The notes beneath the pieces are model-generated. The model was given only the letters and a program-made list of their open reading frames with translations, had not been told where the DNA came from and did not search any database. Of a stretch of DNA of 22,185 nucleotides, positions 10,047 to 13,342 are shown in pieces. Numbering within the stretch: position 1 is the first letter of the stretch; each line of letters opens with the position of its first letter. Source of the stretch: a virus; the IMG/VR virus record IMGVR_UViG_3300042343_000178, positions 1 through 22,185 of that record. One strand, written 5' to 3'. A program made the position numbers and the translations under genes.

Positions 10047-10305
10047 AATCATATATCGCAAATTAGGTAGGGAACAGGCTCACGGCATTGCTGAAAGTGA
10101 TGGTGTAGTTTATATTGACTCACGGCTAAAGGGCAAGAAGCAGCTTGAAATCCTGTTACACGAGTGCTTACATATACTCAATCCAATGGATGATGAAGAA
10201 GCCATTATAGAGAAAAGCGTAACTTTATGTAAGGTTCTTTGGCAGCAAGGATACCGAATGGTAGACAATTCTAATGATACACCATTACAAGATGGTTCTA
10301 AATAG
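10036..10305 (+). CDS. Small HExxH zinc-metallopeptidase-like protein
   Basis: This 89-residue protein starts 11 bases inside the previous gene. It contains HECLH at residues 42-46, embedded in a helix LEILLHECLHILNP, and acidic residues follow (DDEEAIIEK, with Glu54, Glu55 and Glu59 as possible third ligands). Before it is a short beta strand, GVVYIDSRL, as in minimal metallopeptidases of the SprT, ImmA/IrrE and WLM kinds. Such mini-peptidases in phages may cut host repressors or DNA-bound proteins, but no target can be read from the sequence. The gene ends just before the first terminator, so it closes the transcript that contains lysis and phosphoesterase genes. Confidence 0.65.
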   Translation: MKIKIIYRKLGREQAHGIAESDGVVYIDSRLKGKKQLEILLHECLHILNPMDDEEAIIEKSVTLCKVLWQQGYRMVDNSNDTPLQDGSK

Positions 10306-10321
10306 TTGTTGGTTCATAGTT

Positions 10322-10349
10322 CCTCACCCCTAAAAAGGTGGGGTTTTTT
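10322..10349 (+). terminator. Intrinsic terminator after the late/lysis transcript
   Basis: CCTCACC (10322-10328) pairs with GGTGGGG (10337-10343) across an 8-base loop, with one T-G pair, and is followed directly by six T residues. It lies 16 bases after the stop of the HExxH gene. Confidence 0.8.
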
Positions 10350-10352
10350 ATA

Positions 10353-10360
10353 TATCTTTG
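10353..10360 (+). promoter_or_regulatory. TATCTTTG, candidate -7 box between two terminators
   Basis: TATCTTTG matches TAnnTTTG and lies between the two terminator hairpins. A transcript begun about 5-7 bases later would meet the second terminator after about 55 bases without crossing a gene. No clear -33 TTG is present. Confidence 0.35.
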
Positions 10361-10386
10361 TCGTTCATATTGGAGAACTTAGGTTT

Positions 10387-10422
10387 AACCCCCTTGTCAA
10401 TTTCTATTGATGGGGGTTTTTT
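10387..10422 (+). terminator. Second intrinsic terminator, directly before the HNH gene
   Basis: AACCCCC (10387-10393) pairs with GGGGGTT (10412-10418). Above a small internal loop, TCAAT (10397-10401) pairs with ATTGA (10406-10410) around a TTCT loop. A T6 run at 10417-10422 completes the signal. Confidence 0.75.
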
Positions 10423-10424
10423 AG

Positions 10425-10432
10425 TATATTTG
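10425..10432 (+). promoter_or_regulatory. TATATTTG, -7 box placed four bases before the HNH start codon
   Basis: TATATTTG ends at 10432 and the HNH ATG is at 10437, so transcription would begin at or next to the start codon. A TTG at 10407-10409 is 15 bases upstream, slightly short of the usual spacing. Confidence 0.5.
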
Positions 10433-10436
10433 CAAT

Positions 10437-10874
10437 ATGAAAAATACAACTTGGAAAACAATTAATGGCTTTACAGTTTATAAAATAAGTAACAATGGTA
10501 TTGTTATGAATGTAAAAACAAATAGAATATTAAAAACTAATATAGACCCATATGGTTATGTAAGAATAGATTTACAACAAAAAATTGATGGAATAATAAA
10601 ATATAGAAAAACATCAATACATAGGTTATTAGCAGAAAATTTTATTGATAATCCTAATAACTATAAATGTGTTAATCATATTGATGCAAATAGAATTAAT
10701 AATAATTTGAATAATTTAGAATGGTGTACTGCAAAACAAAATATGCATCACGCAAGATATGTAACAAAAAATGGAACAGTCATATCTAAACAAAAAATTA
10801 TTAAATTAGTGGCTGAAAATCCCACTTTAAACAAAAATGATATAATAGATATGCTCATATCTAATTGCAGATAG
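10437..10874 (+). CDS. HNH homing endonuclease (NUMOD4 + HNH)
   Basis: The 145-residue protein has the order of free-standing HNH homing enzymes. Residues 5-30 (W..I.GF..YKIS.NG.V) are a NUMOD4-like region, and residues 60-105 are the HNH nuclease: IHRLLAENFI, VNHIDANRINNNLNNLEWC and KQNMHHA. The zinc-free beta-beta-alpha His-Asn-His core is therefore complete. The C-terminal 40 residues are a short helical tail and lack the usual NUMOD1 domain, so the protein may be shortened. It is very rich in AAT and ATA codons compared with its neighbours, as expected of a selfish gene. It lies between terminators and an inverted repeat, carries its own promoter and seems to be an independent cassette. 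Confidence 0.85.
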   Translation: MKNTTWKTINGFTVYKISNNGIVMNVKTNRILKTNIDPYGYVRIDLQQKIDGIIKYRKTSIHRLLAENFIDNPNNYKCVNHIDANRINNNLNNLEWCTAKQNMHHARYVTKNGTVISKQKIIKLVAENPTLNKNDIIDMLISNCR

Positions 10875-10893
10875 TCTTATTAGGGTGGTTTTT

Positions 10894-10925
10894 TATGTGT
10901 CATAAAACGCACTATTTGACACATA
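10894..10925. repeat. Perfect 9-bp inverted repeat TATGTGTCA / TGACACATA
   Basis: TATGTGTCA at 10894-10902 and TGACACATA at 10917-10925 are exact reverse complements separated by 14 bases. The site is in the non-coding gap upstream of the early operon promoter. The spacing and length fit an operator for a dimeric regulator, or an origin element, better than an RNA hairpin. Confidence 0.65.
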
Positions 10926-10996
10926 TTTGTTGCATATAAGTCAAATTATACCATTCATACCCTATTTTTTACCGCTTATCATAAATATTTGCTTTG

Positions 10997-11030
10997 TTTG
11001 ATAAAGTTATAAGGTTTTACCCTATCTTTG
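10997..11030 (+). promoter_or_regulatory. Probable early-operon promoter, TTTG-N22-TATCTTTG
   Basis: TTTG at 10997-11000 and TATCTTTG at 11023-11030 match the Bacteroidetes -33 and -7 elements with a 22-base spacer, within the usual range. The first early gene begins at 11056, giving a leader of about 20 bases. Confidence 0.65.
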
Positions 11031-11055
11031 ATTTCGTAAACCAAAACAACCAATT

Positions 11056-11232
11056 ATGAAAACATTTGAAATTGAATTTATCCTTAAAATACAAGAAGGA
11101 AATTCATACAAATTACAACAACAAATAATTACAATTGATGCAAATAATAAAAAAGAAGCATTAATTAACGCTAAGAAAAAAATATACATTCCAAGAAATT
11201 ATATTAAAATAGATCATTACCAATTTAATTAA
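11056..11232 (+). CDS. 58-residue hypothetical early protein
   Basis: ATG 11056 follows the CAA-rich leader CCAAAACAACCAATT. The product starts MKTFEIEFILKIQEG and forms two beta strands, a turn and a helix (NNKKEALINAKKKI), then a final YIKIDHYQFN. The alternation strand-strand-helix-strand and the spacing 'DANNKKEALINAKK' resemble small phage proteins of the pattern 'v.A.s..eAi..a'. There is no catalytic motif. As the first gene behind the early promoter it may be an early host-takeover protein, but that is inference from position only. Confidence 0.65.
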   Translation: MKTFEIEFILKIQEGNSYKLQQQIITIDANNKKEALINAKKKIYIPRNYIKIDHYQFN

Positions 11233-11248
11233 ACCAAAAACAACCAAT

Positions 11249-11377
11249 ATGAACAAACTCAAAACTCCACAAGAGAAAGCTAATGAACGCTACAAAGCTG
11301 AAAGCATCAAACCTATGTACGCATTTATTATCGTATTAGTGGCATTTTTAATTACCGCAATCCTTCAAAACATTTAG
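11249..11377 (+). CDS. 42-residue single-span membrane protein
   Basis: The start follows the leader CCAAAAACAACCAAT, nearly the same as that of the preceding gene. The N-terminal 22 residues are basic and hydrophilic (KLKTPQEKANERYKAESIK). Residues 23-40 form one membrane helix (MYAFIIVLVAFLITAILQ). It is probably anchored by its C-terminus with the basic part in the cytoplasm. The function is unknown; early phage membrane peptides often alter host envelope processes or block superinfection. The repeated leader is the best evidence that it is translated. Confidence 0.6.
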   Translation: MNKLKTPQEKANERYKAESIKPMYAFIIVLVAFLITAILQNI

Positions 11378-11378
11378 T

Positions 11379-11546
11379 ATGACACCAATTCAACTTTACA
11401 TTAACACGTTACAAACCCAATTAATTAATATGCCAGATGGCTATGTAAGAGAAACAGTTCAAGCCTGTTTGAACTTAGCACAAGGTATTAAAACAATGTA
11501 TGAAGACACTAATAACAACGTTGGTGAGTCAACAAATCAAGACTAA
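11379..11546 (+). CDS. 55-residue hypothetical protein
   Basis: ATG 11379 is one base after the previous stop (TAGTATG). The product, MTPIQLYINTLQTQLI..., is hydrophilic and helical, with one Cys (VQACLNLAQ) and an Asn/Gln-rich end. The 'MTP' start and length match other small early proteins of this phage. The next frame begins inside its last 47 bases. No family is recognised. Confidence 0.5.
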   Translation: MTPIQLYINTLQTQLINMPDGYVRETVQACLNLAQGIKTMYEDTNNNVGESTNQD

Positions 11547-11718
11547 TCTACAAACCGAAGCCGACACTAAAGGCATAACCCTTAGTAAGTTGGTTTATAA
11601 AATCCTAAAACAATATGAGCAAACTAATCTATCAAGAGAAACAACTGAAGTTGCACAAAAGAGCAACAATGCTTCTGGAACTGCTAAAACAAGCACAAGG
11701 AAGGCAAAATCTATTTGA
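11500..11718 (+). CDS. Ribbon-helix-helix (Arc/CopG-like) DNA-binding protein candidate
   Basis: The first 45 residues of 72 fit the ribbon-helix-helix pattern: a short strand TLITTLVS, a helix QQIKTNLQTEADTKG, a turn GITLS and a second helix KLVYKILKQYEQ. This is how Arc and CopG repressors bind DNA as dimers. The remaining part is a low-complexity, Ser/Thr/Lys-rich tail (TKTSTRKAKSI type). ATG 11500 lies inside the previous gene; GTG at 11524 is a possible later start, but it would remove the strand. The gene also overlaps the next one by 104 bases. If real, it is the only transcription regulator visible in the early operon and could bind the inverted repeat upstream. Confidence 0.55.
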   Translation: MKTLITTLVSQQIKTNLQTEADTKGITLSKLVYKILKQYEQTNLSRETTEVAQKSNNASGTAKTSTRKAKSI

Positions 11719-11912: not shown

Positions 11913-12137
11913 ATGACACCAAAAGAAAAAGCACAAGAATTATTTGATAAGTTTAGAGTAAAAGTTCACGACAGAGATGGTACATCTGCAATGAATGGAT
12001 TTGAAGCTAAACAATGTGCATTAATAGCAGTTGATGAAATATTAGATTTAAAGCATATAGTAACATTAAGAAGGAATATGCACGAAATGGAATTAGATTT
12101 TTGGGATGAAGTTAAAGAAGAAATAAAAGCATTATGA
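11913..12137 (+). CDS. Conserved small Bacteroidetes phage protein
   Basis: The 74-residue product begins MTPKEKAQELFDKF and contains 'EAKQCALIAVDEIL' and 'FWDEVKEEIKAL'. I recall many flavobacterial and Bacteroides phage genomes with short proteins of exactly this pattern: MTPKEKA..L..KF, then AKQCAL.AVDEI, then an end with W..VK.EI. No function is known for them. It is likely a helical protein. Its last codon overlaps the next ATG (ATTATGAG), so it is coupled to the DnaA-like gene. Confidence 0.75.
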   Translation: MTPKEKAQELFDKFRVKVHDRDGTSAMNGFEAKQCALIAVDEILDLKHIVTLRRNMHEMELDFWDEVKEEIKAL

Positions 12138-12571
12138 GAGAAGTACATAAGACATATATGGCAGAACTTGAAATAGAGGTTTTGCGTGATAAGAACAAAG
12201 AACTAAAAAAAGAAATAAATCAATTAAAGGATTTATTAGACAAACATTTAAACATAAAAACAATAAGAATGGACAAGGAACAACAGAAAGAGTATGCAGT
12301 TCAAATAGCCGAAAAAGTATGCAATTACTACCAAATTAAGTACGGACAAATGATGTCTAAATACAGAGGCGAGGAGGTTACTTTGGCAAGGCAAATGACT
12401 ATGTATTTTACTAAAGAAAAAACGGAGTTAAATGGCGAGGAAATAGCAAAATTGTTTAATAGGGATAGAACAACAGTTTTACATTCAATATCCAAGATTA
12501 AGGGTCAGCTATCAAATAAGTTCGATGATACCATAAAAAACGACATTTTCAACTTAAATGTGCTTGTTTAA
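12134..12571 (+). CDS. DnaA domain-IV-like DNA-binding protein with an N-terminal coiled coil
   Basis: The 145-residue protein has a coiled coil at residues 8-40 (LEIEVLRDKNKELKKEIN) and a C-terminal domain at about 57-126 that follows DnaA domain IV. MSKYRGEEVTLARQM matches the bacterial 'LxxxxRxxxVxxARQxAM' helix, ELNGEEIAKLF fits 'SLPEIGxxF', and NRDRTTVLHSISKI matches 'GRDHTTVLHAxxKI'. The Asp111, Thr113, Thr114 and His117 positions of the base-reading loop are kept; Arg112 replaces the first His. The AAA+ ATPase part of DnaA is missing. It could bind DnaA boxes in phage or host DNA to start or modulate replication, or to compete with host DnaA. It starts in an overlap with the upstream gene. 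Confidence 0.8.
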   Translation: MREVHKTYMAELEIEVLRDKNKELKKEINQLKDLLDKHLNIKTIRMDKEQQKEYAVQIAEKVCNYYQIKYGQMMSKYRGEEVTLARQMTMYFTKEKTELNGEEIAKLFNRDRTTVLHSISKIKGQLSNKFDDTIKNDIFNLNVLV

Positions 12572-12622
12572 TTTGGTTATTAACACTAAAGTACCTAATT
12601 TTAAACTCTAAAACCAACCAAT

Positions 12623-13342
12623 ATGAATGACCAACAACTGGCTAAAAAGCCACAACTTTCGTACACGAAAGACCAAGTAGAGTTAGTAAAATCACAGATT
12701 GCTCCAGAGGCAACAGTTGATGAACTAAAACTATTTTTGTACCAAGCACAACGCACAGGATTAGATGCGTTATCAAGACAAATTTATTGCATCCACAGGA
12801 ACGTAAAAACACAAAATGGGTGGGGTAAAAAAATGACTATCCAAACAAGTATTGATGGCTTCCGAGTAATCGCTGAAAGAAGCGGTAATTACGGAGGGCA
12901 AAGCGAACCAATCTTTGTAGAAGAAGATGGTAAGTTGATTTCTTGTAAGGTTTCAGTATTTAGATTTCACGGAGAAACAAGGTATGAAGCATCGGTAGGT
13001 GTAGCTTATTGGGATGAATACTGCCAAAGAACAAACGATGGCAAACCAATGGGTTTATGGGCAAAGATGCCACATACAATGTTAAGTAAAGTTGCAGAAG
13101 CATTAGCTTTGAGAAAGGCTTACCCACAAGATTTAAGCGGTCTTTACACAGGTGATGAAATGGCACAATCAACAGAGGAAACCCCAGCTTACATTAAGAC
13201 TCACGAAAATTTAGAGGACTTAGAGTTAGCGATTGATTTGTGCATAAATACTACTGAATTAAGTCAACTTTACGCACTAAATAGCGAACTTGCAACTAAA
13301 GATGTAACTAAATTATTTACCAAGAAAAAACAAACTTTATGA
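12623..13342 (+). CDS. bet: RecT/Bet-family single-strand annealing protein
   Basis: The 239-residue protein resembles phage recombination protein Bet: 'LVKSQIAPEATVDELKLFLYQAQRTGLDALSRQIYCI' near residues 22-60, then 'TIQTSIDGFRVIAERSGNYGG', 'VGVAYWDEYC' and 'MPHTMLSKVAEALALRKAYPQDLSGLYTGDEM'. These are the diagnostic stretches of the Redbeta/RecT group. It should coat single-stranded DNA and pair complementary strands during recombination-dependent replication. No exonuclease partner is visible next to it, although NinG lies 4 kb downstream. The start follows the leader AAACCAACCAAT. The stop TGA overlaps the next gene. Confidence 0.9.
   Translation: MNDQQLAKKPQLSYTKDQVELVKSQIAPEATVDELKLFLYQAQRTGLDALSRQIYCIHRNVKTQNGWGKKMTIQTSIDGFRVIAERSGNYGGQSEPIFVEEDGKLISCKVSVFRFHGETRYEASVGVAYWDEYCQRTNDGKPMGLWAKMPHTMLSKVAEALALRKAYPQDLSGLYTGDEMAQSTEETPAYIKTHENLEDLELAIDLCINTTELSQLYALNSELATKDVTKLFTKKKQTL

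Follow-up and report, generated by a model that had tools for sequence, protein, structure and literature searches.

The exact inverted repeat at positions 10894-10925 proved to be the left half of a larger element, here called module A. We consider it probable that A is an exchangeable dyad cassette spread by recombination from phage to phage; a protein that binds it is only predicted. The dyad appears to be one replaceable piece of a module set swapped among unlike phages, not a private switch of the early genes. The window, that is the whole stretch of DNA analysed, is an entire IMG/VR record of 22,185 bases; it is AT-rich and probably a fragment. The element is composed as follows.

10895-10949, plus strand: module A, about 50-60 bp, the putative exchangeable unit, with the reported dyad as its left half.
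10894-10902, plus strand: left arm of the dyad, TATGTGTCA, exact.
10917-10925, plus strand: right arm of the dyad, TGACACATA, exact, which doubles as the left arm of an overlapping second dyad.
10914-10946, plus strand: overlapping imperfect dyad, ATTTGACACATAT-7-ATATAAGTCAAAT, with arms at 10914-10926 and 10934-10946.

The original prediction described an exact dyad, TATGTGTCA-14-TGACACATA, and both arm positions and the 14-nt spacer were as claimed. By itself the symmetry of the dyad is weak evidence, being only mildly unusual. Exact 9-bp inverted repeats with spacers of 3-20 occurred twice in the window, compared with 3.5 on average (sd 2.9) across 30 first-order Markov sequences. In 2000 draws, at least one such repeat arose by chance in the 181-nt gap that holds the dyad with p 0.045, or p 0.0035 if the arms needed at least three G/C. 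A search for the half-site elsewhere, which had been suggested together with the dyad, found no further exact copy of the 9-mer within the window; with up to one mismatch there were four matches, both arms counted, versus 7.0 expected. Three TGACNNATA half-sites in alternating orientation were present at 10894, 10917 and 10935, the right arm being reused, and their spacings of 23 and 18 bp correspond to about two helical turns. The looser TGACNNATA motif showed no enrichment across the window (6 matches versus 3.6 expected; 14 of 100 shuffles gave as many).

When copies of A were compared, the left arm and spacer were almost invariant while the right arm varied, an invariance of the core that is partly due to ascertainment because the 18-mer search picks exact cores. 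Perfect pairing of the inner 7 bp was kept in 5 of 33 distinct matched copies, a count that left out copies with a core start other than GTCA or ATCA and that includes one probable chance match, from L216. In some phages the right arm drifts toward the right-hand half-site, giving TGACTTAT-11-ATAAGTCA, and this counterpart of the second dyad is perfect in L157, L217 and L232. The 9-bp symmetry as such is not the conserved feature of A.

That the dyad is a chance inverted repeat of no significance is hardly credible. The expected number of exact repeats per window and the lack of perfect symmetry in most copies of A would agree with it. However, the surrounding element recurs with 87-95% identity over 53-61 bp in otherwise dissimilar phage stretches (L177, L184, L190 and L164, one blastn match each against the window), and A was found in 30 of 69 members of the window's own clade. 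Since symmetry alone is not enough, it is this recurrence in relatives that marks the dyad element as real. Chance is refuted for the element and could still apply to the ninth base pair of the symmetry.

The gap containing the dyad lies 3' of terminator-like hairpins and 5' of a conserved promoter-like sequence, TTTG-22-TATCTTTG, which fits the Bacteroidota -33/-7 promoter consensus. Module A is located approximately 50-100 bp upstream of the putative -33 box. The neighbouring features were:

10391-10416, plus strand: intrinsic terminator-like hairpin 5' of the HNH gene; a second lies at 10322-10343.
10437-10874, plus strand: NUMOD4/HNH endonuclease gene, with NUMOD4 and HNH motifs (Pfam).
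10875-10894, plus strand: right half of a terminator, remaining 3' of the HNH gene; the terminator is unbroken in many relatives.
10997-11000, plus strand: TTTG, putative -33 box of a Bacteroidota-type early promoter, kept in the clade.
11023-11030, plus strand: TATCTTTG (TAnnTTTG), putative -7 box 22 nt further 3', kept in nearly all relatives shown.
11500-11718, plus strand: ribbon-helix-helix (RHH)-like protein, 72 aa, assigned by eye; a candidate binder in the original prediction.
12134-12571, plus strand: DnaA domain IV protein, 145 aa (Bac_DnaA_C, E 1.6e-20).

A RecT gene is located at 12623. The NUMOD4/HNH gene sits inserted in the terminator region, with the same insertion in L034, and at least 70% of its length was present in 2 of 68 relatives' loci. 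Several early genes are preceded by a leader-like repeat resembling AAACCAAAAACAACCAATATGAA (11037-11072, 11230-11265 and 12600-12625), with no obvious Shine-Dalgarno sequence. Among the matches listed, the best for the terminase were Bacteroides phages (approximately 40% identity) and the best for the RecT protein were cyanophages (38-44%). The terminase and the promoter type suggest that the host was probably a member of the Bacteroidota; the RecT matches give no support to this, so the assignment is kept as a probable one.

Relatives of the window were collected by protein searches with DnaA-C (best 80 of 93 loci) and RecT (best 80 of 119 loci), and clade loci were retained only if they contained the DnaA-C to RecT region. 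The gap was readable in 134 loci, representing 70 distinct sequences, and 69 contigs including the window were scored after removal of double copies of one contig. In this clade the gap is a mosaic. The terminator is followed directly by the core promoter, by A, or by B, C, E, T or combinations of these. Module A was present in 30 of the 69 contigs and absent from 39, and 23 contained none of the 11 modules searched, some of these module-free gaps holding unclassified sequence (e.g. L156). A swap in like flanks was found in L034, which carries C in the place of A and has the HNH insert and both flanks in common with the window (92.6% over 761 nt).

The distribution of A was compared with trees of neighbouring genes. 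On the RecT plus DnaA-C DNA tree (69 rows) A needed 21 changes versus 22.8 after shuffling, 55 of 200 shuffles being as low, and on the upstream-gene tree (59 rows) 18 versus 19.4, with 66 of 200 as low. The downstream-gene tree (69 rows) gave 18 versus 22.5, with 4 of 200 as low, so some residual phylogenetic signal of A was present for the downstream gene only. As presence is near random on these trees, turnover of A must be very fast. No convincing cargo gene travelling with A was found among 31 ORF families located in the gap or within 5 kb downstream of it, where 27 phages with A were compared with 30 without; the lowest p, 0.004 (uncorrected, 31 tests), belonged to an ORF in the gap.

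These results bear on the proposal that a dimer, either the RHH-like protein at 11500 or the DnaA-C protein at 12134, binds to the dyad and controls the promoter at 10997-11030. The dyad is exact, sits in the control gap 5' of a conserved promoter-like sequence and recurs in related phages, and to this extent the original prediction held. An obligatory operator of the two proteins found no support. The RHH-like gene was present in all 29 relatives with A and equally in all 39 without it, with the same two variants of the N-terminal strand in both groups, whereas A is missing from more than half of the clade, all 11 modules are missing from one third of it, and no other exact half-site occurs in the window. 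The DnaA-C gene was present in 68 of 68 relatives by construction, since loci were chosen by the DnaA-C to RecT region. Both proteins were rejected as obligatory partners; A is not kept wherever the RHH-like gene is kept. The absence of A from many clade phages suggests that it is not needed for the promoter, and we regard regulation by such a dimer as improbable. The RHH assignment itself was a reading by eye; Pfam gave no RHH match, and PHROGs gave a weak match to a regulator (E 0.05).

Outside the clade, A occurs in phages with which no other DNA similarity of the window was detected. The exact 18-mer of A, TGTGTCATAAAACGCACT, was found in 42 IMG/VR stretches: 23 from the window clade, 18 from other phages by context, and one (L160) in which the match falls inside an ORF. 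At an E threshold of 1e-5, A was the sole blastn similarity of the window to the fetched stretches of L177, L184, L190 and L164. Genes adjoining A outside the clade were of various kinds as judged by eye, including terminase small and large subunit, structural, lysis and helicase genes, and this variety also stands against an operator of one particular promoter. When flanking contexts were grouped by single linkage, there were at least six for A, at least seven for T and at least five for E. The 18-mer was also present in three stretches of a collection of 84,980 prokaryote genomes, in contexts that were all unlike, and these matches were read as chance. The 71-nt A' had no match in named phages or plasmids.

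Readings of A as a serine-resolvase, Xer/dif-like or attP-like site were considered by eye only and are not favoured; an integrase gene adjoined A in L189, the only one of 23 records with such a Pfam match. In the same stretch ARAGORN placed a tRNA with undetermined anticodon at 11236-11325, close to both the integrase gene and the A-like element.

Scans for three neighbouring modules and their contexts revealed an ordered array of about 12 different modules, C, M2, T, M4, M5, M6, M7, E, M9, M10, G and A, of which A is usually the right-most. Nearly all are dyads, with arms mostly of 7-9 bp and spacers of 2-18 bp; an exception is C, a direct repeat. The 16 array stretches chosen for a count contained 68 exact dyads (arms of 7 bp or longer), compared with 15.0 expected. 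The order was obeyed by 261 of 277 module pairs in 29 distinct arrays, whereas the best of 60 shuffled sets reached 198; without A the values were 177 of 190 and 144. These counts are to be read with the facts that the order was fitted to the same data and that arrays from one phage group are related by descent. Before the pairs were counted, reversed modules were removed from 4 arrays, and L160 and L199-L201, which have no array context, were likewise left out of the counts. The order was broken in 7 of the 29 arrays (L237, L223, L177, L198, L164, L171 and L227).

Long parts of the array also recur between phage stretches with no other match to each other. L161 and L207 were joined by a single blastn match of 191 bp (94.8%), and L161 and L217 by one of 182 bp (94.0%). 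Among 44 records searched, mostly fragments, the A core was single-copy in 31 of 34 matching records, E in 21 of 21 and T in 24 of 24, and a reversed-pattern control for the three modules matched none of the 44. The three records with a second A-core match were G017 and G018, where the two lie approximately 116 bp apart, and G015, where the second is 8 kb off and has 3 mismatches. In one phage group (L198) the array is flanked by converging genes and, as judged by eye, by a terminator on either side, a placement that speaks against a promoter operator in that group. Two array queries against named phages and plasmids gave matches at chance level only (E at least 0.3 among the matches listed, the best 20 of 25, 20 of 70 and 9 of 9). 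No description of such arrays appeared in the result listings of a literature search.

One module was found inserted in a gene. T, which like E is a 28-bp dyad, interrupts the variable loop of a phage tRNA-Asp in L215 and L235, and ARAGORN recognised tRNA-Asp(GTC) only when the 28 bp of T were removed, indicating a clean insertion. Because the two records are identical around the T site, they count as one case. No empty tRNA site was found, the gapped pattern matching only the two occupied records, and flanks of solo T copies inspected by eye had no common target-site duplication. A phage-borne Y1 transposase was rejected as the mobiliser, as PF01797 was found in none of 23 phage records (mostly fragments). 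The T sequence or a near copy was also observed at the gene start in L234 and L244-L247, where it is read in frame as part of the putative signal peptide of a 691-aa protein. An insertion of T into this gene was rejected as not clean, the signal peptides of relatives being similar in length.

Since most modules can be folded, they might be RNA hairpins, either non-coding RNAs or parts of transcripts. For the reported dyad on the plus strand, 44 G.T cells were counted versus 9 A.C cells, and the minus-strand fold of A was better than 197 of 200 shuffles. However, the left arm is nearly fixed and 5 of 7 possible right-arm transitions yield G.T anyway, so the excess follows from the composition of the varying arm and does not support an RNA stem. 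On the plus strand the fold of A was unremarkable (z -1.29, with 20 of 200 shuffles folding equally well), one module (C) consists of a direct repeat, and Rfam had no gathering-level match over the gap or the arrays. In the window (10200-11300) Rfam returned two sub-threshold matches, neither over the dyad, and in L232, L217, L161 and L215 a single tRNA, located in L232 outside the array. An RNA function is accordingly given little probability.

An origin role had been offered as an alternative in the original prediction. In that reading the array would be part of a replication origin or control site used by the phage DnaA-domain-IV protein with host factors, the modules being redundant so that subsets are enough. 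It agrees with about one copy per record, with the non-coding and dyad-rich character of the array, and with a position and orientation that are not fixed relative to genes. Outside the clade, Bac_DnaA_C was detected in 14 of 18 array- or module-bearing records (12 of 18 with the curated cut-off) versus 5 of 20 others (Fisher p 0.003; 0.02 with the cut-off; 0.002 without the L234 group), a weak support given that the controls were few and heterogeneous (9 named phages plus 11 IMG/VR records, 5 of the latter with solo T) and that G007, scored as module-bearing, is related to controls G049-G051. Small DnaA domain IV proteins were frequent in these phages, in the window (12134-12571) as in 19 of 23 records profiled.

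Several points weigh against an origin. Most of the records are fragments, with kinship inside groups; in 23 of 69 clade members DnaA-C occurs with none of the modules; the distance from A to the DnaA-C gene varies from approximately 1 to 13 kb; and one module lies inside a tRNA. DnaA boxes, TTATNCACA, were not enriched: with up to one mismatch there were 36 in the window versus 39.8 expected, and none in the gap. The phage DnaA-C protein could have a specificity other than canonical DnaA boxes. In view of the fragments, the kinship within groups and the 5 controls with solo T, we hold the origin reading to be unlikely, though less so than the operator or the RNA reading.

The preferred reading, an exchangeable cassette, would work as follows. 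The reported dyad forms the left part of A, and A as a rule closes the right-hand end of an ordered array of about 12 modules. Several phage groups with little or no other DNA in common carry this array, mostly once per record. Co-infecting phages may exchange modules by recombination through common flanks and shared modules, and the likely agents would be phage annealing recombinases, for example the RecT encoded at 12623. The modules presumably act as DNA, as putative sites for a dimeric or multimeric protein. As a putative binder would have to recognise A in unlike phages, it would be a host protein or a member of a widespread class of phage proteins.

More tentatively, and with less confidence than we place in the cassette itself, the arrays may represent a previously unrecognised class of phage cis-element. 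Such an element would comprise about a dozen dissimilar dyads in a set order, each mostly present once, of which dissimilar phages within a single host community would own parts and trade them one module at a time. Phage DnaA-domain-IV proteins or a host protein might read it as a shared site for replication or control. Comparisons of phage genomes usually rely on genes; in this case non-coding dyads seem to move by themselves, with their order kept, between phages for which no further common DNA was detected. The modules may serve as a marker for recent recombination between unlike phages with common hosts, and they are a candidate for a shared cis-acting site, whether for origin, partition, regulation or anti-defence, in phages that are uncultivated and probably infect Bacteroidota. 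They also call for caution, since a conserved dyad 5' of a phage early promoter need not be that promoter's own operator.

Several known systems resemble the dyad series in part. Like the REP sequences of bacteria, it consists of intergenic palindromes of 20-40 bp, several in a row (28 bp in T and E). However, REP sequences are present in many copies per genome and are linked to a RAYT/Y1 transposase, whereas here about one copy per phage record was found, with many different dyads in a fixed order, and the transposase was not detected in any of 23 phage records, mostly fragments. Rickettsia palindromic elements (RPE) and other small mobile palindromes are small inserts tolerated in RNA genes, and T in tRNA-Asp is likewise a palindromic insert in an RNA gene; RPE are larger elements, whereas the insert here is 28 bp, is carried by phages and showed no multiplication within a genome. 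MITEs are short non-coding DNAs with inverted repeats at scattered sites; here the dyads have unlike arms and no parental transposase was found, and by eye no target-site duplication was noticed. Mycobacteriophage stoperators are phage operator arrays of short intergenic sequences resembling binding sites that differ among relatives, but here the exact half-site is unrepeated in the window and the same modules occur in unlike phages. Module-boundary (linker) sequences are thought to promote phage mosaicism at gene borders; they too are short common sequences at the borders of exchange, whereas here a structured and ordered series of dyads is present rather than one linker. Among these systems, the closest parallel to how the dyad series would work is a family of small mobile palindromes joined to a modular cis site.
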